From IMG/VR virus record IMGVR_UViG_3300030061_001500, positions 1 to 21,473 of that record: a DNA stretch of 21,473 bases, one strand, 5' to 3'. The stretch is from a virus. The notes beneath the pieces are model-generated. The model had not been told where the DNA came from and made no database searches. It worked only from the letters and a program-made list of their open reading frames with translations. The translations under genes and the position numbers were made by a program. This document shows, one piece after another, positions 1,336 through 18,435 of the stretch; within the stretch, counting starts at the first letter, position 1; the number at the start of each line of letters is the position of its first letter.

Positions 1336-1655
1336 TTGGTAGATGTTTTACTTGTGAAGACAAAGTAGATGTATATTTAGACCATGATTTTCAGCGCGGT
1401 GCAGATTACTGTGCGAAGTGTTTGCTCGCAAACCTCACATGGGCTGAATCACGAAGTGGTGTGTATCATTTCAACAAGGTGACGAAACACAAACTCATCG
1501 CTTTGAACTTAATTGCGTTAGAAATGGCGAAAGAACATAAGCGTATTTCAAGACGCGGGTATATGAAATGGCCGGAAAATGTTGAGAAGGTTGCTGATGA
1601 TTGGTTCCCCGAACTACATGAAATATGCCACCTCGCATGGAGTGATGAACAATGA
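1332..1655 (+). CDS. Small zinc-finger protein (107 aa)
   Basis: The protein begins MIGRCFTCEDKVDVYLDHDF and then has DYCAKCLLANL, giving two CxxC knuckles about 20 residues apart, a treble-clef or zinc-ribbon-like arrangement in the first 35 residues. The remainder is mixed and probably helical, with two aromatic patches (YMKWPENVEKVADDWFPEL) and a final EICHLAW. No family is recognised. It is linked to both neighbours by 4-nt ATGA overlaps, so it is probably translated with them. A DNA- or protein-binding adaptor is possible but unsupported beyond the cysteines. Confidence 0.7.
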   Translation: MIGRCFTCEDKVDVYLDHDFQRGADYCAKCLLANLTWAESRSGVYHFNKVTKHKLIALNLIALEMAKEHKRISRRGYMKWPENVEKVADDWFPELHEICHLAWSDEQ

Positions 1656-1891
1656 CGCGTGATTTTGCTTACAATCAAACATGGGAAGGAATTGAGCAGA
1701 TGCTTGAACAAGCGGAAGCAGAAAAGAATAAGCATAAAATGACCATACTCAACAAGAACATACCCACACGCATGAAGGAACAACCGATGCGAGATTACAA
1801 AGGATTGCAAGGAGTGTGCAATGCGCTTCGTTGGGTTCTTGGTGATAAGAACATGACGCGCGCAGAAGTATTAGGGAGAGATGAAAGATGA
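1652..1891 (+). CDS. Hypothetical protein (79 aa)
   Basis: Function not recognised. The first half (TWEGIEQMLEQAEAEKNKHK) is strongly helical and charged. The second half contains KGLQGVCNALRWVLGDKNM, an amphipathic helix with a Gly-containing turn. The size and the helical pattern followed by a short conserved-looking segment resemble small viral accessory proteins, but I cannot name one. The ATG lies in a 4-nt overlap with the preceding stop, and the gene ends in an ATGA overlap with the next. Confidence 0.65.
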   Translation: MTRDFAYNQTWEGIEQMLEQAEAEKNKHKMTILNKNIPTRMKEQPMRDYKGLQGVCNALRWVLGDKNMTRAEVLGRDER

Positions 1892-5775: not shown

Positions 5776-7101
5776 ATGCCAAACCTAAACCCAAACGAAG
5801 ACAGAAATGATGACCAAAACAAGGACGCGGGCCTACACCCCGAAGTCGAGGAGCGATTAAAGTGGTGGGCTGAAAAGCACAACAAGACACTTGATGACGC
5901 AACAGGTGAATTTTTCACTTACCTTATGACTGAACTCGGTGTTTCCAACCCGAACGATGAAGAAGATGACTTCATGATTGATGCCGCAGAAACCTTCGTG
6001 GTTGAGCGACGAGTTATGACTGGAACTGCGCAGAACGCAGTTGAACTTGTTGGATACTTTGTCGGTGTTGACCCTAAGATGAGAGATGGACAAGAACGCA
6101 AGCGCAACCCTGCTGTTGCCGCCGCTTTGAATGACCTTGACGGAGCAATCCAACAAGGACTTGTAGCACGCGCTTACACCGAGAACGGTGTTTGGATGCT
6201 TGAGAAGAAAGACGGTGTAGTCGCTACTGAAGAATCAGCAGACGCGAAGCCGTGGTTCTTGTATGAAGAGAATGGTCTTCAACTTGCAATCTTACAGAAC
6301 AACCCCGAATGGTCACGCTATGGTGAACCAATTACACCATACCGATACCAACGAACTTACTACTTCCTCGGTAATGAGAAAGATAACTTCTTGGATGACC
6401 AAAGAAACCTGCGCTTAACTGTGACATCAAGTGACCCCGATGAGTGGTTCATCCCTCAATTGTTCAGCGAATGCACAATCAAAGTGCGCGCTCAATCAGC
6501 GAATGTCAAACCCGAATGGGCTGATACATACAACACTTTTGCCCTACCCGGTGCTTTGACCTACGGTAATGATTTTGTTGATGAACATGTCCGCAATGCA
6601 ATCAAACCGGACAAGTTGATTCCCGACCTTGACAACTACATCAAGGACTTATCAACCCTCAACGAAGTGTTTGAAACACGACAAGAAAATGTCCCCGGTT
6701 ATAATCCGGTAGGCCCTCTTGTCTTCATTCGTGGTAAAGTGAGTGATATGAGAAAAGAAGCACGCGAAACCGAATGGGACCCATCGGGTCACGACTACTC
6801 TATGAGTGTCACATCATTCGACCTTGCTCGCAATTTTAGTGAATCACGACGACAAAACATACCTTGCTATGTTCACGGACTACTCGGTGATGACGGTCAT
6901 CCATTTGATTATGCTACTGACGAAGGCTGGAAATCTTACGCTGTTAAATCCACAGTCATTGTCTTTGGTCGATTGAGTGTGCGCGTCACAGATGACGGAC
7001 CTCAACCGGCAATCAAAACCTTTGGAGTCTTCGCAGTCCCACGCCTCGTCATCCCTGCTGGTGAAGGCGGCGACACATCAACAACACAATATGGAGAGTG
7101 A
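5776..7101 (+). CDS. Putative single-stranded DNA-binding (RPA-like) protein (441 aa)
   Basis: I chose the ATG at 5776 because GGAGG at 5764-5768 precedes it; an in-frame ATG at 5740 lies inside the clamp loader. The acidic N-terminal 70 residues are helical. Two segments look like OB-fold strands: AVELVGYFVGVDPKM (89-102) and PLVFIRGKVSDM (314-325), the latter continuing to STVIVFGRLSVRV (392-404). The gene lies between the clamp loader and the RecA-like ATPase, where an ssDNA-binding protein would be expected. No zinc motif is seen. The functional call rests on position and strand pattern and is tentative. Its first 15 coding bases, ATGCCAAACCTAAAC, are identical to those of the next gene at 7107. 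Confidence 0.45.
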   Translation: MPNLNPNEDRNDDQNKDAGLHPEVEERLKWWAEKHNKTLDDATGEFFTYLMTELGVSNPNDEEDDFMIDAAETFVVERRVMTGTAQNAVELVGYFVGVDPKMRDGQERKRNPAVAAALNDLDGAIQQGLVARAYTENGVWMLEKKDGVVATEESADAKPWFLYEENGLQLAILQNNPEWSRYGEPITPYRYQRTYYFLGNEKDNFLDDQRNLRLTVTSSDPDEWFIPQLFSECTIKVRAQSANVKPEWADTYNTFALPGALTYGNDFVDEHVRNAIKPDKLIPDLDNYIKDLSTLNEVFETRQENVPGYNPVGPLVFIRGKVSDMRKEARETEWDPSGHDYSMSVTSFDLARNFSESRRQNIPCYVHGLLGDDGHPFDYATDEGWKSYAVKSTVIVFGRLSVRVTDDGPQPAIKTFGVFAVPRLVIPAGEGGDTSTTQYGE

Positions 7102-7106
7102 AATGA

Positions 7107-8132
7107 ATGCCAAACCTAAACGATTTGAAAAAACAAGCCAAACTGACACACCCACAAGTTGGACCTAAAGACCAATTTGACCCAAACACCGGAGAAACAG
7201 TTCCGGTTGCTTTGGTTGAAGAAAAGAAAAGCGATAGCAGACCAATAGCCCAATCCGTTTGGGATGAAATTGTCAACGCTGGTAAGCATGTTCCTAACAA
7301 CATGATTTTCGCTGGACTTGTTGGACCGGAAGGAGTCGGTAAGACAGGTATCGTTCTTGACAGCATGACCGAAGAAGAAAAGAAGCGCGGAGATGTAATC
7401 TTCTGCCTTGATTTCGATGGTGGTGGACAGACAACCCGCGTGACTCATCACCGTGAGTTTGCTAACAACATTCGTTGTCTTAACCCTAATGTCATGTTTG
7501 AAACATTCGATGAAGATGGTGAAATCCGTGAAGCAATCGACTATCCAGCAACACACAGACGCGTGATGAAAGTTGGACAGACTCTTGTTGATTGGGCCGC
7601 TAACCCCGGTGACAAACCACGACTACATTCAGTCTTGTTCACAGCAATTGACCTATGGGATGAAGTTGCGAAGAACTGTATGTTCATTGAAGACTTAGGG
7701 ACTGCACCCGATGGTATCGGTGCTAAGGTTGAACCTCACCTACAAGTCGGGATGCGTTTCAATTGGCAGATTCGTTCCACACGATTCCACCAACTCACCA
7801 CAATTGCACGAACTTTGATGTCACTTGGAGTCCGCGTCTATTTTGAATCTCACTTCAAAGAATTACAGGACAAGAGTGGTAATGTCATTGGTAAGAAACC
7901 AGCATGGGAAAAACATACAGCAAACTATCTTAACCAAATACTATATTTCCACAAGAAAAAGGTGCGCGGAGATGATAGCAAACCTACGGGAGAAACACGC
8001 TACGAGGTCGAGTTCGTTAAATGTAAAACGAACGCTGACCTACTTGACCAGCGAAGAACAATCATGGTCACGAAGCAGAATGCGTCCCCGGAGTGGTTTG
8101 GTTTGCCCGAACTACGAGAGGGTCAGTTATGA
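7107..8132 (+). CDS. RecA-superfamily ATPase, RadA/Sak4-like (341 aa)
   Basis: A P-loop ATPase with Walker A GPEGVGKT (73-80), a following strand VIFCLDFDGGGQTTR (97-111), and a Walker B-like strand SVLFTAID (176-183). About 70 residues precede the P-loop. This layout fits the viral RecA-like recombinases and annealing-linked ATPases (Sak4 and relatives), which act with ssDNA-binding proteins in recombination-dependent replication. The upstream neighbour is the candidate ssDNA-binding protein, which supports that role. GGAGAG at 7093-7098 is the Shine-Dalgarno; an ATG at 7103 is out of frame. The superfamily call is good; the exact subfamily is inference. Confidence 0.75.
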   Translation: MPNLNDLKKQAKLTHPQVGPKDQFDPNTGETVPVALVEEKKSDSRPIAQSVWDEIVNAGKHVPNNMIFAGLVGPEGVGKTGIVLDSMTEEEKKRGDVIFCLDFDGGGQTTRVTHHREFANNIRCLNPNVMFETFDEDGEIREAIDYPATHRRVMKVGQTLVDWAANPGDKPRLHSVLFTAIDLWDEVAKNCMFIEDLGTAPDGIGAKVEPHLQVGMRFNWQIRSTRFHQLTTIARTLMSLGVRVYFESHFKELQDKSGNVIGKKPAWEKHTANYLNQILYFHKKKVRGDDSKPTGETRYEVEFVKCKTNADLLDQRRTIMVTKQNASPEWFGLPELREGQL

Positions 8133-8491: not shown

Positions 8492-8633
8492 GAAACACAT
8501 TAAAGGAAAAACAAAACCAAGACTATGCGGAGCAAAGGGTGAATTTGAACCCGTTGGAACTGATACTGATATACCCGTCTGTGAAAAATGCGCGTGTATC
8601 CATCTTGTTGAAACAGGAGAAGTGATTGAATGA
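8484..8633 (+). CDS. Small zinc-ribbon protein (49 aa)
   Basis: A short gene placed exactly between the DnaJ-like gene and PCNA. It overlaps the first by 8 nt and the second by ATGA. The basic N-terminus MTKKHIKGKTKPR is followed by LCGAKGEF and, after about 18 residues, VCEKCACIHL, giving a Cys-Gly and a CxxCxC cluster. The basic tail plus cysteines resembles the 49-aa protein at 888 and the 39-aa protein at 12162. No family is recognised. Confidence 0.55.
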   Translation: MTKKHIKGKTKPRLCGAKGEFEPVGTDTDIPVCEKCACIHLVETGEVIE

Positions 8634-9385
8634 GTTTTGCAAAAGCGACATTCAATAATGATTCTCTTTGGGCTTTCATGACAGGGTTTGGTGAAGGTGT
8701 TAATGACCTTCGTTGTGACATTGCTGATATGAAATTGACAGGTTCCGTTGACACTGCTACGCATTACTTCACCAAGAGTATTGGTATTCACATGGAAGAT
8801 TACAAAGCCGGAACTGTGTATGTCCCCGATGTTCACAAGGTTGGCGCGTTTCTTAAAACATGCAAAGAAGATAATACAGTCATGCAACATGTAGGTAATA
8901 CGCTTACACTAAGAAACGGCAACGATGAGTTCAGCACACCAACACACGACCACATCATATCATATACAACTGTGGACCGCGCGAAATTAGCACTATCTAT
9001 GTCTTCGCAAGATGATTGGAAATCTCTTGGTCGCGCTAAAATACAGGCTCATGGTAATATGACTATGGAAGAACTTCGTGGTATATCATCAATGACTAAG
9101 GTTGTTGGTAAGGATGCTCCGATTCGTGTGTCTATCGAAGACCAAGAAATGACGATTACTGCTGGCACTAAACGAGGCGCAAGGATGACTCGACAAATTG
9201 AGATTGATACTCAATACAAAGAATCGTGCGAAACTGTATTCGGTTCACATTTTCCTAAGTTGGTTAACATCATGCCGAGCGGAACTATCATTTTCCACAT
9301 GGGAATGAAGAGCGCGCTAATCCTAAAACATTCGGAAGTAGCCGCAGTTCTTGTCCTTAAACATCAAGAGGGTGCTGACCAATGA
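8630..9385 (+). CDS. pcn: Sliding clamp, PCNA-like (251 aa)
   Basis: The ring-shaped processivity factor for PolB. The length (251) is typical of PCNA. Recognisable parts are the first-domain segment SVDTATHYFTKSIGIH (about 39-54), the segment VGAFLKTCKEDNTVMQHVGN (67-86) with the following strand LTLRN, and the C-terminal half with ETVFGSHFPKLVNIMP (about 203-218). That half ends in IIFHMGMKSALILKH and VAAVLVLKHQ, which match the last PCNA strands. The sequence is divergent; motif-by-motif identity is low and the call rests on length, strand order and operon context (clamp loader upstream, polymerase downstream). The start overlaps the preceding stop (ATGA). Confidence 0.75.
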   Translation: MSFAKATFNNDSLWAFMTGFGEGVNDLRCDIADMKLTGSVDTATHYFTKSIGIHMEDYKAGTVYVPDVHKVGAFLKTCKEDNTVMQHVGNTLTLRNGNDEFSTPTHDHIISYTTVDRAKLALSMSSQDDWKSLGRAKIQAHGNMTMEELRGISSMTKVVGKDAPIRVSIEDQEMTITAGTKRGARMTRQIEIDTQYKESCETVFGSHFPKLVNIMPSGTIIFHMGMKSALILKHSEVAAVLVLKHQEGADQ

Positions 9386-9576
9386 AGTATCCAACATTAG
9401 TTATTCAACTAACAAGTGATGCAGGTGTGCCTATTGACACACCTAACGATTGGCTTGAAACTGTCATGCAAATAGCAAGCATGGTTCATAGCAAATACAG
9501 ATGTGGTATTGATGTCTTGTATGGAGAGGCAACTAAAGAAGGATTCAAAATCATAGAAGAAGAGGTGGAACAATGA
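9382..9576 (+). CDS. Hypothetical protein between PCNA and PolB (64 aa)
   Basis: Function not recognised. The sequence MKYPTLVIQLTSDAGVP reads as a beta strand, NDWLETVMQIASMVHS as a helix, and GIDVLYGEATKEGFKIIEEE as strand-turn-strand, so a small alpha/beta fold is likely. It is joined to PCNA and PolB by ATGA overlaps on both sides, suggesting it is made together with them, perhaps as a small accessory factor. Confidence 0.65.
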   Translation: MKYPTLVIQLTSDAGVPIDTPNDWLETVMQIASMVHSKYRCGIDVLYGEATKEGFKIIEEEVEQ

Positions 9577-11939
9577 TAAGTGATGCTATTTATCACGATG
9601 ACCGACCACCAACAATCTACAACCGATTCCGTGATGAAACGGGTGCGTTGATTGAATATACCATTAACGACTACAAACCTCACATGTATATTCCAGCATC
9701 AACACCGGAGTTCCGACTCAAGCAACTCAAGCGTTCATTCCCTGCTTCTAAAGTGCGCAAGGAAAAAACATACGAAGGGCTTGATGGTGCTACTCTTTGG
9801 AGAGTTGAAACGGATAATCCTTATGATATTGTGCAGATGAAGAATATGTTCAGCAAGACATACGAAGGCGATATGCGTTTTATTGACCAATACTTAGTTG
9901 AAGAATGCACTAAGATGCCGAAGTGGAAACCGCGCAAGTGGTGGTATGATATTGAGTGCAACACTGGCGACGACAACTTCACCACTGTTATTGCTGTCAT
10001 CGACTCCGACCTCAAGAAGCCCGTTGTTTTTGCATGGGCTGATGAACGAACGAACTGTCCGTGGCTTGACAAACTTGACAATCCAACAGGCGCGTATCGC
10101 ATTTTGGATAGAAAGGTTCGCGACACAACATTTGATATTGAACTCTTCAACTCCGAAGAAGCCCTTTATCATCACTTCATCGAGTTCCTCAACGAGCGCA
10201 ACCCCGACATGATGATTGCTCACGCGGGAACATTCTTTGACATCCCTCACATGATTGAACGCCTTGACAAGATTCATGGTCATGGTGGTGCATCTAAGTT
10301 GAGTCCTCTCCAAGTTATCCGATACCCGAAGAAAGGTGATAGATACCGATTTGATGACCAACCGATAGCAGGTCGATGGCAGTTTGATACTGCCGCACCT
10401 GCTTCATCCGGCACAGGATTTGAGCGAGTTTGGAAAGATAGCGGTGGTGGTCAACTACCTAACCGCAAGTTGAATACTATTGCTGAAACACTTGGGCTTG
10501 GTTCTAAACTAACCGAAGAGATTGACGGTATGGATGTTCATAATGGATGGTATAAGTATTGGACCGAGTTTGTTGAATATTGTTTGCTTGACACCGTTCT
10601 TCTTCGTGGAATTGATGAAGCGCGTAATGTGACTGACTTCTTTGTTGAGATGGTTCGCCTATGTGGTGTATCAATTCAATCAGCAACGAATGTATCGAAT
10701 TTTATGCGCGGTCTTCTTGGTCGTAAAACCGAGTTGATTGCTCCTACTCGCATGAATGTGATGAAGCCCGATATTCAAGGCGCGGAGTTCATTCTCAAAG
10801 AGAACGGTTTGTATGAAGATGTGTGCGTTATTGACTACAAAGGTCTGTATCCATCACTAATGACAGGGTTCAATCTATGCTATACAACGAAGCGAGATGG
10901 ACCGGGTGAAGGTATTCTTGAGATGGAGAACGGAACTTTTTGGGACCAAACACAGAAAGGCATACTACCTCAAGTTGTTGACGACCTCTTTGAATACCGA
11001 GCATTATGCAAACAACGAATGCGCGAAGCAAAGTCTAAAGAGATTCGTGCCGCTTGGAATACAACTCAAGCCGCAGTAAAACGCGTAATGGCGAGTCTGT
11101 ATGGTGCGACAGCAAGTGTTGGGTTTGGCTGGGCTGACCTCGACATTGCTGAAACGATTCTATCCGAAGGACGACGATGCATTGCACTACTTGATACAGT
11201 TGCCACTCGTCTTGGGTATAATGTTCTCTATGGTTTCACTGACTCCGCTTTCATCCAAGTGCCACTTGACAAAGCAGAATCACTGGCCGCGCGTATTACC
11301 AATGTAGTTCAACAAACAACTGGTAATACCAAACTTGTCGCGGAGGTTGAAGCATACATGCCTTACTGGTTATTGGCTGGTAAGAATCGCTACGCTGGTA
11401 AGGTATCTTATCCTCCCGAAGACGCTGGTAAAATGAAGACTGCTAACTTCATGAAAGGTAGCAGTCTTGCACCTATCAGTAAGGAGATTGAAGGCACAGT
11501 CCTTGACCTTGTATGTGATGGTGCATCCGAAGCCGAAGTGAGAGCAAGCGTTCTTGAGATAGCAATGCCTATTCGTTTAGGTAATATGGATTTGAAGAAT
11601 GTCACAACACAGACACGGATTGGTAATGACCCGGAGAAGTTTGAAACTCCGAGTGGTGCATCAAGAGCCGCGCTATATTATAACAAACACATGGCTAAGG
11701 GTGACCCGTTTGTTTCGGGTGACTCCGTTCAATGGATACAAGTTTCAGCAGTTCCAAGTGGTTTGCCGCCGACAGATATTGTCGCGTATCGCGAACCTGC
11801 TGAAATTGATGGATTTGAACTAAACTCAAAAGCCATTCTTAAGAAACACATTGAGAAAAAAATCTCCGGTATATTCGATGTCTTGGGTTGGGACATTGAA
11901 GCCGCAATTGGAACCCCCCGACCCGCAACTTATTGGTGA
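9573..11939 (+). CDS. polB: Family B DNA polymerase with 3'-5' exonuclease domain (788 aa)
   Basis: The replicative polymerase. The exonuclease domain has Exo I WYDIEC (D126, E128), Exo II GTFFDIP (D223) and Exo III YCLLD (Y336, D340). All four acidic residues are present, though the usual Asn of Exo II NxxxFD is Ala. The polymerase domain has motif A DYKGLYPS (421-428), then GILPQVVDDLFEYR (463-476), motif B K503-xxxx-SLYG (508-511), motif C YGFTDS (553-558) and the thumb-side KNRYAGK (604-610). Family motif C is YGDTDS; here the first Asp is Phe and only the second (D557) remains. The length is close to archaeal PolB. It follows PCNA and a 64-aa protein without gaps. Confidence 0.96.
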   Translation: MISDAIYHDDRPPTIYNRFRDETGALIEYTINDYKPHMYIPASTPEFRLKQLKRSFPASKVRKEKTYEGLDGATLWRVETDNPYDIVQMKNMFSKTYEGDMRFIDQYLVEECTKMPKWKPRKWWYDIECNTGDDNFTTVIAVIDSDLKKPVVFAWADERTNCPWLDKLDNPTGAYRILDRKVRDTTFDIELFNSEEALYHHFIEFLNERNPDMMIAHAGTFFDIPHMIERLDKIHGHGGASKLSPLQVIRYPKKGDRYRFDDQPIAGRWQFDTAAPASSGTGFERVWKDSGGGQLPNRKLNTIAETLGLGSKLTEEIDGMDVHNGWYKYWTEFVEYCLLDTVLLRGIDEARNVTDFFVEMVRLCGVSIQSATNVSNFMRGLLGRKTELIAPTRMNVMKPDIQGAEFILKENGLYEDVCVIDYKGLYPSLMTGFNLCYTTKRDGPGEGILEMENGTFWDQTQKGILPQVVDDLFEYRALCKQRMREAKSKEIRAAWNTTQAAVKRVMASLYGATASVGFGWADLDIAETILSEGRRCIALLDTVATRLGYNVLYGFTDSAFIQVPLDKAESLAARITNVVQQTTGNTKLVAEVEAYMPYWLLAGKNRYAGKVSYPPEDAGKMKTANFMKGSSLAPISKEIEGTVLDLVCDGASEAEVRASVLEIAMPIRLGNMDLKNVTTQTRIGNDPEKFETPSGASRAALYYNKHMAKGDPFVSGDSVQWIQVSAVPSGLPPTDIVAYREPAEIDGFELNSKAILKKHIEKKISGIFDVLGWDIEAAIGTPRPATYW

Positions 11940-12957: not shown

Positions 12958-13157
12958 GTGATACAAAAGAAAAACTGATGAAATGGATTAAGCATGAATG
13001 TGAATGTCATTACGGATGGCGTGAAGATTATGCGCTTGAAGTGTTGATTGGGATTCTTGCAGGTGCGATTGATGGCGAAGATGCAGAATACGGCTATGCT
13101 TCGTTCGATGAGATTATCTTTGACTTGAAGCACTATGGCGTGGAGGTGAAGGCGTGA
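12954..13157 (+). CDS. Hypothetical protein (67 aa)
   Basis: Function not recognised. It is mostly helical, with HECECHYGWREDYALEVLIG (about 14-33) containing two Cys and two His close together. It has an acidic middle (DGEDAEY) and a short C-terminal helix. It is coupled upstream by ATGA and downstream by GTGA to the Fe-S nuclease. A small partner of that nuclease is conceivable from position only. Confidence 0.6.
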   Translation: MSDTKEKLMKWIKHECECHYGWREDYALEVLIGILAGAIDGEDAEYGYASFDEIIFDLKHYGVEVKA

Positions 13158-14074
13158 CAGTGAAGATTTACGATGACGGCTCAAGTTATGCATGGACACC
13201 CGAAATGGGTAAAGATGGTATCATCATTCGGATGAGCAAGTCAACTGCTGGCTCACTTGGATGGTGCGCGCAACAGATGTGGTTGCAACAAAACTTTCCT
13301 AAACCTCAAGGGTTGGTAAAACACCTTGTTCTTGGTGACGATGTTCACAACGGACTCGACCTATTCTATCAATCAATTGAAAGCAACAAGCATCAAATGA
13401 AAATCATCCAAAAAATGATTGAACAAGGTGCAGAACTTACAGATTATCTCAAGAAGTTGATTCCTTCCGAGAAAGTTATTGTAAATAATCGTCGCGCGGA
13501 AAATAAAGATTTTCCGTTTTATAGTGACGATTACTACTACAACATGAACTGGCTTATGGAGTTTGAAAACGCGCGAATGAAACTTGCAAAGGATAACCCT
13601 ATGCCTCTCGCTAATGAAGTTCGTATTGATGTAAAGATTGATATGAATGTTGAGGGGTATGGAACTATACCCGTTCAGTTTGTTGGTATCATTGACCGTA
13701 TCTTTGAAGCACCCGATGGTGGATTGATGTTGTTTGAATTGAAGACTGGTAAATGGGCTGATGCTAAAGCAACCGAGATGAGGAAAGAAATGGCGTATTA
13801 CAAATTCTTGATTGATAATTGCGATAGTGATTATTTGAAAGAACGCAATATCGACCGCGCCGTCACACATTGGGGATGGAGATTTTCAGCCGCGGACAAC
13901 TGGATGAGTGAGAAAGTCAAATCAGTTAGTGAAAAGGCAATAATGAAGCGTGTCAAAGATTTGATAAAGATGTATCTTGACGAACAGTTCCCCCCGACCC
14001 AACAGGATTTCAAGTGTGGTTATTGTGATTACCTTGAACTTTGTCCAAAATATGCAATACAGGTGAGCGAATGA
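13154..14074 (+). CDS. PD-(D/E)XK nuclease with Fe-S cluster, Cas4/AddB/RecB-like (306 aa)
   Basis: The GTG start is fixed by a perfect GGAGGTGA (13142-13149) and a GTGA overlap with the preceding stop. The catalytic core is VGIIDRIFE (D181) followed by LMLFELKTGKW (E195, K197), the D...ExK pattern. EMAYYKFLI (about 212-220) corresponds to the QxxxY motif with Gln changed to Glu. One cysteine near the N-terminus (C38) and a C-terminal cluster CGYCDYLELC (C288, C291, C297) match the four-cysteine iron-sulfur site of Cas4 and AddB. Such enzymes resect DNA ends. There is no cas1/cas2 or CRISPR array here, so a role in viral recombination or DNA processing is more likely than adaptation. Confidence 0.88.
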   Translation: MTVKIYDDGSSYAWTPEMGKDGIIIRMSKSTAGSLGWCAQQMWLQQNFPKPQGLVKHLVLGDDVHNGLDLFYQSIESNKHQMKIIQKMIEQGAELTDYLKKLIPSEKVIVNNRRAENKDFPFYSDDYYYNMNWLMEFENARMKLAKDNPMPLANEVRIDVKIDMNVEGYGTIPVQFVGIIDRIFEAPDGGLMLFELKTGKWADAKATEMRKEMAYYKFLIDNCDSDYLKERNIDRAVTHWGWRFSAADNWMSEKVKSVSEKAIMKRVKDLIKMYLDEQFPPTQQDFKCGYCDYLELCPKYAIQVSE

Positions 14075-14250
14075 CTGAATACAAGATGTGCGAATTATGT
14101 GGAAAGAAACCCGATGCAAGCACAAAAGTGTTTGGTAAGAAGTTCCTTCAATGCCCCAATGGTGAAAACTATGTTTGCGGTCATTGCTTGGGTAAATTGG
14201 TTGACTTTGCTATTACTGCCGGAATGAGGTTTGACGATGAATCCTCTTAA
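14071..14250 (+). CDS. Small zinc-finger protein (59 aa)
   Basis: Starts at an ATGA overlap with the nuclease gene. The protein has MCELCGKKPDASTK, then FLQCPNGENYVCGHCLGKL: CxxCG plus a Cys and a CxxC, enough for one or two zinc sites in a treble-clef-like fold. The C-terminus is a short hydrophobic helix (KLVDFAITAGM). No family is recognised. It overlaps the primase start by 14 nt. Confidence 0.65.
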   Translation: MTEYKMCELCGKKPDASTKVFGKKFLQCPNGENYVCGHCLGKLVDFAITAGMRFDDESS

Positions 14251-15832
14251 CTTTGATTTTCCTAAAGAAGTGGGACTATTCCGTAAAATTGTTAACGACA
14301 AGAACGGTTTTGAAAGATATTGGTCCGCATTACAAAATTCACAATGCGCGTATATGTCTGTTTATGGTTTCCGAGCCGTGAAACCTAATGGTCGTCGCGC
14401 TGAATACAACACGGCTATCATCAAGCATTTCGTTCTTGACTTCGATAAGAAGTATCGTAAAGGTAGCAACATGGTTGAGGTTGAAGGTGACGAGGTTGTT
14501 CAACAAGTTCGCCGCCTTCATCAGTTTTTGATGAATGAACAAATCAATCATGGTGTGTGGTTTAGTGGTAATGGTTTTCACATTTGGACATCACTCGATA
14601 AAACTCACTTACCATCAAGCGGAACACAGGTGTCACATATCAAAGCGGCGGGTAAGAAAGTCATCAACAAGTGGAAGAAAGATATGGAATTATATTGTAT
14701 GGACCCAACAGTGCCATTTGACACTGCGCGTATGATACGAATTCCTAACTCTTACAATGCCAAGCAACATGTTTTGCGATGGAGCATCCCGCTAACGAGT
14801 GAGCAATTACTTACTATGTCTTGGGATGAGATTTGCGAGAAAGCAGAAAACCCACTCAACACCGCGCACTTCTATGGTCATAAAGGAGTCAATCTCCCTA
14901 TCAGTGAAGTTCGCAAAAGCCAATTCAAAGTCACAGGTGAACCAGTGAACTTTGATACTGTCAAAATGGGGAGCATCAAGATTCTCCCATGCCTTATGGA
15001 ATCGGCTTGTCAAGTCGGGAGCAACCCTCCACATATCAGTCGCGCGAGTCTTGCTATTTACCTTGCGTCGCGACTACGAAACTTTCTCCCCGTTCAGCGA
15101 ACTACTGTGCAGATGAGAGAGAAGCACATACTCACACTCCACGATTTCATTAAGACGCTTCAATGGGCTGACTACAATCCCGGTGTCACTGAATATCAAT
15201 TACGCTCAATAGTTGAAACAGGATACATGGAAAGATGCGAGAGCCTTATTGGTAAGGGTCTTTGCGTCGGTCGCTGTCAATTATGGGATGGAACAGGTAA
15301 TCATGAAGATAGTGACGAAGAAGTTGTTGAGTTAACTCATCAAGAAACGAAGCAAATTTATGAACGCGCTAAACAAGAAGTTGAGAAGCATAAGAGTAAT
15401 GTTGGTGATTATTCACATAACAAAACATCTTCAACATTTATAGGCTTGAAGGCTGAAAAAGCAGTTGAATTTTACTTATCAAGACATTTCGATGTTTCAA
15501 CGCTCAAGGGTGACCTCTTCACTAACGGCAGAACAATCGAAGTTAAGACAGTGTTAGAAAAAGACTGGACGCGTCTTGGTAGAATGATACCTCCACACCA
15601 ATTAACAAAATACACAAACGCAAAGTCAATTGTTATTTGGGCTACATGTGATGATTACGACCACAACAATAACAAAGTTATCATCAAAGGTTGGAATCAT
15701 GCTCAAGAGATTCATAGTAAGGGAATACCTATCAAAACCATTTGTGATAACATTTGGTTGAAGAATGAAAATGATGTTAAATCTATCAATTCAATATATA
15801 CAACGCTAAGAAAACAGAAGGTGATACAATGA
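14237..15832 (+). CDS. Archaeo-eukaryotic primase fused to a PriL-like Fe-S domain and a PD-(D/E)XK nuclease (531 aa)
   Basis: Three parts are visible. (1) The AEP catalytic domain has FVLDFDKK (D68, D70), FSGNGFHIW (109-117, the SxH motif) and ARMIRIPNSYNAK (164-176). (2) The segment at about 250-350 resembles the C-terminal domain of the large primase subunit PriL: LPCLMESACQVG (C252), a helical middle, then TEYQLRSIVETGYMERC (C334) and GLCVGRC (C343, C347). The four-cysteine spacing suits a [4Fe-4S] cluster. (3) After a charged linker (about 360-395), residues 400-490 have GLKAEKAVEFYL, KGDLFTNGRTIEVKT (D426, E435, K437) and IVIWATCDD, a PD-(D/E)XK nuclease pattern. It would make RNA or DNA primers. 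The ATG at 14237 follows GAGGT; a TTG at 14231 is less likely. Confidence 0.85.
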   Translation: MNPLNFDFPKEVGLFRKIVNDKNGFERYWSALQNSQCAYMSVYGFRAVKPNGRRAEYNTAIIKHFVLDFDKKYRKGSNMVEVEGDEVVQQVRRLHQFLMNEQINHGVWFSGNGFHIWTSLDKTHLPSSGTQVSHIKAAGKKVINKWKKDMELYCMDPTVPFDTARMIRIPNSYNAKQHVLRWSIPLTSEQLLTMSWDEICEKAENPLNTAHFYGHKGVNLPISEVRKSQFKVTGEPVNFDTVKMGSIKILPCLMESACQVGSNPPHISRASLAIYLASRLRNFLPVQRTTVQMREKHILTLHDFIKTLQWADYNPGVTEYQLRSIVETGYMERCESLIGKGLCVGRCQLWDGTGNHEDSDEEVVELTHQETKQIYERAKQEVEKHKSNVGDYSHNKTSSTFIGLKAEKAVEFYLSRHFDVSTLKGDLFTNGRTIEVKTVLEKDWTRLGRMIPPHQLTKYTNAKSIVIWATCDDYDHNNNKVIIKGWNHAQEIHSKGIPIKTICDNIWLKNENDVKSINSIYTTLRKQKVIQ

Positions 15833-16176
15833 CGAAAGAATATGATTATACAGAAAGACAAGGATTTTTGAAATCCATTAAAGTGACACAAGTTGAGATT
15901 ATCAAACCCTCACATATACCGGGTTTAATTGGTGATAGTGAATGGTTCAACGCTGATTACATTGAATTATTATTGATGATTGATGAAAAGTGGAGAACAC
16001 CCCGCGCGCTTTGTAAGTATTCAGCACCGTTGAGATTGATGGATTCGTCTAAAATATCGCAGATGCTAAAAGGTCTTGAAAAGCGTGGTCTTGTTGAGTC
16101 AAGAAAAGAAGGAAGAAACCATACCCAATACAGACGGACTCACAAGTTCCCAGCACATGAGGGGCGAATAGCATGA
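15829..16176 (+). CDS. Winged helix-turn-helix DNA-binding protein (115 aa)
   Basis: The central and C-terminal part has the winged-helix layout: DYIELLLMIDEKWRTPRALC (about 44-63), a recognition-helix region SSKISQMLKGLEKRGLVESR (about 73-92), and a wing with basic residues (KEGRNHTQYRRTHKF). This is the MarR/ArsR-like arrangement. The N-terminal 40 residues may serve dimerisation. It may regulate one or both intergenic promoters (4716-4888 and 16863-17010) or act in replication. It is placed between primase and ERCC4 nuclease with ATGA overlaps on both sides. Confidence 0.75.
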   Translation: MTKEYDYTERQGFLKSIKVTQVEIIKPSHIPGLIGDSEWFNADYIELLLMIDEKWRTPRALCKYSAPLRLMDSSKISQMLKGLEKRGLVESRKEGRNHTQYRRTHKFPAHEGRIA

Positions 16177-16862
16177 AACCACCATTGATTATTGATACCA
16201 ATGAAAGAGGCACACTTGTTTCTGCACTTGAACGACGCGCGCAATCAAGGTCACCTCGTATCAATACCCTGCGACAAAATTTAATCAACGGTGATTACAA
16301 GTGTGGTGATTGGTTGATTGAAGCCAAGAGTATTGACGACCTTTTCAGTTCAATGAGAAATGGTCACTTAATGCGTCAACTCGACAACATGGATGCTAAC
16401 GATGGTAATTATGGTTTAGTGATATGGGGAGAAATAGGTGGTTATGTTCACCGAGCGCGTGAGCGTGGTTCTACCATTACCACCAGCCAAGCCCTCAAAC
16501 AAATGACAGGTTTTCTTGGTAGAGTCGTAGCCGACTTTGGTTGCCTCATTTACCGCGCCCCTAATGCAAGTGAAGCGGCACAATTTATGGTTGCTCTTCA
16601 TGAGAAGACTTACAAAAAAGCAAGCAGACATGGTGCGCAAGCAGTTAGACGCGTATCCACAAATGATGTTCGCAAAGATATGCTACATACTATTCCCGGT
16701 ATTGGACCGGAGATGGTTGAAGCAATTCTTGATGCGTGTGGTTCAATCGAAGAAGCCGCATGTGGTGATTGTTTGCGTGATGTCCCCCGTATGGGTAAGA
16801 TTTTGCGCAACCGCGTAATAGAAGTTCTAACAAGCGAAGAAGAAGTTCGCTTTGAGAGGTGA
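16173..16862 (+). CDS. ERCC4-domain (XPF/Mus81-type) structure-specific nuclease with HhH domain (229 aa)
   Basis: The nuclease core has IIDTNERG (D8, E11), INGDYKCGDWLIEAKSIDDL (D41, E50, K52) and SSMRNGHLMRQLDNM (about 59-73), matching the family pattern (D...RE ... gDy ... iERKs..Dl..Si..gr...Q). The signature ERK is EAK here. The C-terminal tandem helix-hairpin-helix is LHTIPGIGPEMVEAIL (171-186) followed by a second hairpin (VPRMGKILRNRVI). The size corresponds to nuclease plus (HhH)2 without a helicase domain, as in archaeal short XPF. These enzymes cut flaps and branched DNA; XPF partners with PCNA, which is encoded here. It is the last gene before the second intergenic region. Confidence 0.9.
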   Translation: MKPPLIIDTNERGTLVSALERRAQSRSPRINTLRQNLINGDYKCGDWLIEAKSIDDLFSSMRNGHLMRQLDNMDANDGNYGLVIWGEIGGYVHRARERGSTITTSQALKQMTGFLGRVVADFGCLIYRAPNASEAAQFMVALHEKTYKKASRHGAQAVRRVSTNDVRKDMLHTIPGIGPEMVEAILDACGSIEEAACGDCLRDVPRMGKILRNRVIEVLTSEEEVRFER

Positions 16863-17010: not shown

Positions 17011-18435
17011 ATGCCCCAAAGACAATGGAACCAATATACAGCAGTAAAAGAATACCCCGTAATGAAGGATTACCTTGAGCGTTTTCGGACGACTTCGTTT
17101 TTCAACGAAATACCCGGCCTCATATCCTTCTTTTACCTACAAGGACAAGCCCTTGTTGACTATGTGCGAATACCCGTATGGGCTTCGGCACTCGACCCGC
17201 GTATCCACACATTTTGGATACAAGCAACAAGGTCCGGTAAGTCAATCGCTTGGGAGTTCACCGGAGAAGTCGCTGAACTTGCAGGGCTTGACATTGATAT
17301 GTTCACCAGTGGAACTGACAGTGCGCTTATCGGGTCAATAGACTCCGTGAGTGACGGTGATGGTGGATACGAACTTGTGCAGAATGAAGGACTACTCGGT
17401 GGTAAGAAGTGTTTGAATTTTGATGAAGGTTCAATCCTTCTTCAATCAAACCCTAAGCAATTCTTTTCCGAAGTTATTCTGTATCTTCAACAAGCAATGA
17501 ACCCTGTTGGGAGTCACAGTAATACACTAACTAAACACATGAAGAACGGTAAAGTCGAAACAGAATCCCGCGTATCGCTTTGGATTACTTCTTTCCCACC
17601 AGCAGGTGTCAAAGAGTATGTTCTTACTAAGGGTCTGTTTCAACGAGTGTTGTTGATTTACCGACCGTGGAGTGATGACATGCGACAGATGGTATCCGAA
17701 CAAAGAATGTCGGGTGTCTTCCAAGATAAGTTAACAGAAGTTGCTTCACTACAAGACATTGCTGACCACTTCATTCGCATTCGTGAGAAAACACAAGCGC
17801 GCTTGTTAGCAATTGCTAACATGACAAACCAAGAATGGGATGAACTCAACCCAGCAAGTAAAGAAGAAGTAGCGCGTGGTTGTATGCATGAAATGTTCAA
17901 TGTTGATGAATCAGTTCATCCTCAATTGATGGCATCAGTCGATGAATACTACACTCTTGTGCGTGGTATGGACAAACATTTGAGTGATGTTGTCTGTTCA
18001 TTTATTCCAAATATTCTCAACTACACCGTATTATTTGCAACACATCTTGCTTTAATTCGTGTCGAGCGTGATAACATATCAGCGGATGGTGATTGGACGG
18101 TGACAGGTGACGATGTTGAAATGGCGACTGAAATCCTCTATGATATATACGAGCAACTTGTCCTATGGCTTGAGTCCGAAGTCGAAGTCGGAGCAAAAGC
18201 GGCTGAAAAGATTGCGCGCAAAGATGAATGGTTGAATGCTATGAAACCCTGCAAGAGTGTTGAGATTGAATCCAAAGGCGACGGTTGGGTTCTCAAGAAT
18301 GATATGTTTGACCGATACGCTAACCAACTCGGTAAGAGCAAGCCGACTGTGTATAAGCGATTCAAAGATGTTGAGAAGTTATTCAAGACACATCGTGTAG
18401 GAAGCGCAGTATATGTTAAGTTCAAGGAGGAATAA
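17011..18435 (+). CDS. P-loop ATPase, putative replicative helicase, with C-terminal DNA-binding domain (474 aa)
   Basis: An AAA+/DUF3987-like layout is visible. Walker A is QATRSGKS (71-78), with Gln in place of the usual first Gly. Walker B is CLNFDEGS (134-141). A sensor-1-like strand is LWITSFPP (190-197). LFQRVLLIYRPW (209-220) carries a likely arginine finger, as in DUF3987 and D5-like helicases. The C-terminal 60 residues (NDMFDRYANQLGKSKPTVYK, then RFKDVEKLF and VGSAVYVKF) read as a winged helix. No other helicase of MCM or DnaB type is in the window, so this is the best candidate for the replicative helicase. A DNA-packaging or other ATPase is less likely. It begins the second operon with its own promoter and strong ribosome-binding site. 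Confidence 0.6.
   Translation: MPQRQWNQYTAVKEYPVMKDYLERFRTTSFFNEIPGLISFFYLQGQALVDYVRIPVWASALDPRIHTFWIQATRSGKSIAWEFTGEVAELAGLDIDMFTSGTDSALIGSIDSVSDGDGGYELVQNEGLLGGKKCLNFDEGSILLQSNPKQFFSEVILYLQQAMNPVGSHSNTLTKHMKNGKVETESRVSLWITSFPPAGVKEYVLTKGLFQRVLLIYRPWSDDMRQMVSEQRMSGVFQDKLTEVASLQDIADHFIRIREKTQARLLAIANMTNQEWDELNPASKEEVARGCMHEMFNVDESVHPQLMASVDEYYTLVRGMDKHLSDVVCSFIPNILNYTVLFATHLALIRVERDNISADGDWTVTGDDVEMATEILYDIYEQLVLWLESEVEVGAKAAEKIARKDEWLNAMKPCKSVEIESKGDGWVLKNDMFDRYANQLGKSKPTVYKRFKDVEKLFKTHRVGSAVYVKFKEE

Follow-up and report, generated by a model that had tools for sequence, protein, structure and literature searches.

The window analysed here (21,473 nucleotides, positions 1 to 21,473 of the IMG/VR virus record IMGVR_UViG_3300030061_001500) encodes RFC, PolB, a Cas4/RecB-like nuclease, an ERCC4 nuclease and a thermosome, and its gene content suggests assignment to a magrovirus-like archaeal tailed virus. 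An archaeal-type primase is listed for magroviruses in the ICTV profiles. The primase gene of the window is a single open frame encoding 531 aa, which the first-pass annotation had read as three domains on one chain: a PriS-like core, a PriL-like Fe-S domain and a PD-(D/E)XK nuclease (Table 1). This reading is borne out by the open frame, the motifs conserved in the family, the PriS and PriL profiles and the AF2 model of the nuclease. Searched alone against Pfam, NCBIfam, PHROG and PDB sequences, the window protein gave nothing decisive; Pfam matched it nowhere, and its two PHROG matches (phrog_9660 at residues 35-206 and phrog_16175 at residues 424-499) are both annotated as of unknown function. 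Elsewhere in the window, a 474-aa protein (17011-18435) is kept across the virus group and has no Pfam or PHROG match, and the replication cluster includes PCNA-like (8630-9385) and RadA-like (7107-8132) positions without confident Pfam matches.

Table 1. Features of the primase locus and of related replication genes in the window.
Feature	Position	Strand	Basis
Whole fused ORF including stop codon	14237..15832	+	Open frame, translation
AEP (PriS-like) catalytic domain, residues 1-245; D68/D70, H115, D162	14237..14971	+	Family alignment, NCBIfam, Foldseek
PriL-CTD-like four-cysteine domain (predicted Fe-S), residues 246-354; C252, C334, C343, C347	14972..15298	+	Family alignment, Pfam, NCBIfam
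Fused PD-(D/E)XK restriction-like nuclease, residues 355-531; E407, D426, E435, K437, Q455	15299..15829	+	Homologue alignment, AF2, fold matches
Small gene of winged-helix-like type, the second one in the primase-ERCC4 slot	15829..16176	+	Weak MarR/TrmB-type matches
ERCC4-type nuclease with HhH, which forms the conserved right-hand edge of the slot	16173..16862	+	
Cas4/RecB-like PD-(D/E)XK exonuclease upstream of the primase; different nuclease family	13154..14074	+	
Family B DNA polymerase (PolB), no inserted nuclease in the window virus	9573..11939	+	

Relatives of the primase were collected by scanning IMG/VR with successively wider alignments, which returned 13, 20 and then 338 sequences, 80 of the 338 being kept. 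The primase alignment comprises 32 members with 38-84% identity to the window protein, and D68, D70, H115 and D162 are invariant in it, so that the DxD, SxH-type and hD motifs of the AEP superfamily are all present. Each of the 32 has some match to NCBIfam PriS models (best E 3.6e-5), and at the sequence level the family profile detects the Prim-Pol domain of CAPP (E 3e-4). When the primase model was compared with the PDB by Foldseek, the best matches were AEP enzymes, led by the LigD polymerase 4mky (E 7.5e-4, prob 1.00), with PrimPolC, CAPP and PriS ranking below it; it should be noted that the AF2 model of the primase core behind these fold matches is poor (pLDDT 52.5). The most probable role of the primase part is to supply primers to the viral PolB.

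The region following the AEP domain carries four cysteines, C252, C334, C343 and C347, which are invariant in the same alignment. NCBIfam PriL models match this C-terminal region in up to 22 of the 32 members, all below the curated cut-offs, the best match being to residues 259-357 of L081 (E 1.1e-6), and Pfam PF04104 matches two family members (best E 0.0011). The PriL/Fe-S assignment for the window rests on transfer from the family, because neither Pfam nor NCBIfam gives a PriL match for the window protein itself. As a control, the accepted PriL-like domain of PolpTN2 (plasmid pTN2) was searched and is also missed by Pfam; therefore, the absent Pfam match was not taken as a refutation. Profile searching of PDB sequences with the Fe-S region turned up no relative, and a search of plasmids with the same region gave chance-level matches only. 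The range originally proposed for the PriL-like region, residues 245-355, was right, with PriL models matching family members though not the window protein. Profile matches and invariant cysteines are those of a PriL-CTD-like sequence, and the domain would be expected to act like PriL-CTD, binding a 4Fe-4S cluster and helping to start primers. Only the C-terminal part of PriL could be recognised, the PriL N-terminal domain not being seen in the viral primase.

One-chain primases of this kind are not new. A PriS-like AEP and a PriL-like four-cysteine domain also share a single chain in PolpTN2, the primase-polymerase of the Thermococcus nautili plasmid pTN2, and in the PriS-PriL fusions reported for Nanoarchaeum equitans and phBC6A51 (PMC3973330, PMC5862659). 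PolpTN2 is longer, at about 920 aa against about 360 aa for the magrovirus core, and includes PriCT-1 and winged-helix regions; no nuclease has been reported on it. The archaeal/eukaryotic PriS-PriL heterodimer shares with the viral family the AEP motifs and the four invariant cysteines, as well as the NCBIfam models that match it; however, the viral primase is one chain in which the PriL N-terminal domain is not seen, and in structure comparisons LigD-Pol/PrimPol-type AEPs rank ahead of PriS. The one-chain arrangement, which the first-pass annotation had counted as part of an unusual combination, is the rule in this virus group. All the 80 distant relatives kept have primases of 360-371 aa that end just past the fourth cysteine, without a nuclease extension, and in the clade to which the window belongs the protein generally ends at about residue 360. 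The two-part primase of about 360 aa is the conserved, standard primase of this group, which is magrovirus-like by gene content.

It is the C-terminal nuclease that sets the window protein apart from most of its relatives. The AF2 model of residues 355-531 (pLDDT 89, pTM 0.85) has the element order of a PD-(D/E)XK enzyme, in agreement with the fold that had been proposed for the C-terminal part; the predicted core (alpha-beta-beta-beta-alpha-beta) carries a D..(D/E)xK active site. The catalytic residues D68 and D426/E435/K437 had also been identified correctly, the former being invariant in the 32 primases and the latter three, together with E407 and Q455, in 15 nuclease homologues. The top four PDB fold matches are the type II restriction endonucleases PvuII and NhoI; these matches are weak (E 0.1-0.3). 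The element order and the D..ExK active site are shared. Unlike PvuII and NhoI, the viral nuclease is found joined to replisome proteins or set within them, and no methyltransferase was identified beside it. A profile of the nuclease found no relative among PDB sequences, and PADLOC gave a single weak REase_II match, in a free-standing homologue. Many small free-standing phage proteins in BFVD have the same fold, the best being K4FB91 of Cronobacter phage GAP32 (E 8.5e-10, TM 0.72); this protein and phrog_16175 are relatives of the nuclease in sequence and fold, but differ in lacking a primase fusion.

The distribution of the nuclease was assessed in 46 viral contigs in which the end of the primase could be read beside the ERCC4 gene, used as an anchor; the counts refer to records and not to independent events, as some contigs are near-copies. 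A long primase extension is present in 7/46, six belonging to this PD-(D/E)XK family and one, in L019, to a different PD-(D/E)XK-like domain. The nuclease is a separate overlapping gene in 2/46, and neither form is found in the remaining 37. The search for the same fused architecture in other viruses, suggested in the first-pass annotation, was successful: the primase-nuclease join is also open in L001, L033, L035, L028 and L053, of which L028 and L053 look like near-copies, and the fusion is therefore not a lone assembly error. Apart from L019, the seven fused frames listed have no in-frame ATG in the stretch from the fourth cysteine to the catalytic ExK, so that separate translation of the whole nuclease looks unlikely; TTG and GTG codons do occur. 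In many sister contigs the ERCC4 match starts 3-6 bases past the primase stop, and these therefore have no slot.

Other occupants of the slot are winged-helix-like or zinc-finger-like genes. A 297-aa protein with an HNH-like motif, seen by eye and not confirmed by Pfam, fills it in L198 (2611-3504) and L226, and a similar protein is encoded beside the PolB gene of L050 (8227-9003). The L019 domain (6072-6578; PDFILNGYSVDLKTT) is fused to the primase C-terminus, and an IMG/VR scan with it returned its own contig only.

The covalent join makes it conceivable that the protein is a true primase-nuclease replication enzyme, in which the nuclease, working with the primase at the fork, would trim primers or take them away, or would start replication by nicking DNA. 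That the fusion occurs in several contigs and has arisen with at least two different nuclease types would agree with such a role. The slot lacks the nuclease, however, in most relatives, including L002, L003 and L013, whose primases are 95-97% identical; among such close relatives the nuclease is either absent from the slot or present as a separate, divergent gene. Nor was a copy found in searches of the whole records of L003 and five other nuclease-free viruses, some of which are fragments. The histories of nuclease and primase also disagree: between the window and L004 the primases are 96% identical and the nucleases 38%, and between the window and L001 the values are 85% and 63%. On a primase tree of 25 rows, four of which are fused to this nuclease family, the presence of the nuclease requires at least six gains or losses, and the grouping of the fused rows as one clade is rejected (AU p = 2.6e-5). 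The nuclease has thus moved horizontally and has been fused recurrently and sporadically. Taken with the homologues in other genes and in phages described below, these observations do not uphold the original view of the nuclease as a dedicated part of a replication enzyme, and we regard that explanation as quite unlikely, even considering the two further points in its favour, purifying selection and an association with PolB.

Homologues of the nuclease are found in other settings. The 954-aa PolB of L050 (5356-8220) carries one in frame in a loop of the exonuclease domain that lies between Exo I and Exo II; a single contig shows this insertion, and 12 related polymerases without the insert have a short loop at the same position. 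An intein is not supported in either fusion, because the L050 insert shows by inspection no C-terminal HN-C/S/T junction and the primase has no downstream extein. Likewise, a group I intron-encoded endonuclease is not supported, as Rfam gave no match at the gathering threshold in the window or L050. Free-standing homologues occur directly after the thermosome gene in the distant magroviruses L062-L064 (L062:4968-5510) and in unrelated phages; such homologues also lie in marine phage regions with many small nucleases and in jumbo phages. The sole match in the genome collections is one contig of a Rickettsiales MAG. The virus-like genes of this contig (L077) include those for the nuclease homologue and for an AEP-like protein and one similar to window positions 1652-1891, and it is possibly a mis-binned viral contig. 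In our reading, the nuclease belongs to a phage family whose members are free-standing, resemble restriction enzymes and travel as a cassette.

The nuclease is under purifying selection and is kept as a protein. For pairs with unsaturated synonymous change, its dN/dS is 0.07-0.23 in all but one pair, the exception being the window and L012 (0.36, itself near saturation); the primase values are 0.02-0.08. These low ratios and the intact catalytic residues argue against a neutral read-through, in which overlapping genes were joined by chance and without consequence. Fusions are indeed scattered over the primase tree, and the unfused primase and nuclease genes overlap at SD-bearing, ATGA-type stop/start junctions (e.g. 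GAGGTGATTGAATGA), so that a small change can fuse them; yet L001, L033 and L035 all keep this fused form despite dS of up to 1.4, and a neutral origin seems very improbable.

Purifying selection fits equally well a nuclease useful to the virus, which might degrade host DNA or kill competitors, the primase being only a tether to replicating DNA. The predicted restriction-like fold and the attachment to two different replisome enzymes are in line with this, as is the competition reported for a phage homing endonuclease (PMC11620839). Against it, the distribution is patchy, neither a modification partner nor a gene for self-protection was identified, and the viral genome itself would have to be resistant. 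This reading appears unlikely.

The explanation that we consider probable is that a compact, magrovirus-like primase and a mobile, restriction-like nuclease cassette of the homing or competition type have been joined, the cassette having attached repeatedly to replisome genes. Genes for phage homing endonucleases are often located near or within essential genes, those of the replisome included (Barth et al., PMC10448857), and the nuclease described here is a sporadic passenger with the same patchy, horizontally moving behaviour in or beside essential genes. The free-standing phage homing endonucleases, of which six families including PD-(D/E)XK are known (PMC6083498, PMC10448857), resemble it in being scattered in their occurrence and in lying close to, or inside, essential replication genes, and the sharing of the viral slot by other nuclease types is a further likeness. 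They differ in that the viral nuclease is attached in frame, without splicing, to primase and PolB, and here we infer the homing or competition role, along with DNA cutting, its target and its benefit.

According to this explanation, the AEP domain of the chain of about 360 aa would make the primer and the joined PriL-type four-cysteine domain would help to start it. The PD-(D/E)XK nuclease of about 175 aa is translated as a C-terminal extension of the window primase; its cassette would have moved into the small slot separating the primase gene from that for ERCC4, and loss of the stop/start junction would have joined it to the primase. The nuclease would then cut cassette-free DNA of rival or co-infecting genomes, and repair would copy the cassette in.

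The repeated attachment to replisome enzymes could also reflect a fork-linked function. More speculatively, the nuclease family may spread among archaeal viruses precisely by non-splicing, in-frame attachment to replisome enzymes (the primase C-terminus and the PolB exonuclease loop), with the replication machinery carrying the nuclease to competing genomes; we put this forward tentatively, as a somewhat unlikely extension. A literature search of limited coverage found no earlier report of a primase-nuclease fusion or of the PolB insertion.

These results identify the conserved primase of an abundant group of ocean viruses, which family libraries mostly miss, as illustrated by the window protein and its lack of a Pfam match. 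With about 360 aa, this minimal one-chain PriS/PriL-type enzyme would be convenient to study. Because the nuclease joins different replication proteins in frame, selfish, competitive and truly replicative fusions become testable alternatives.
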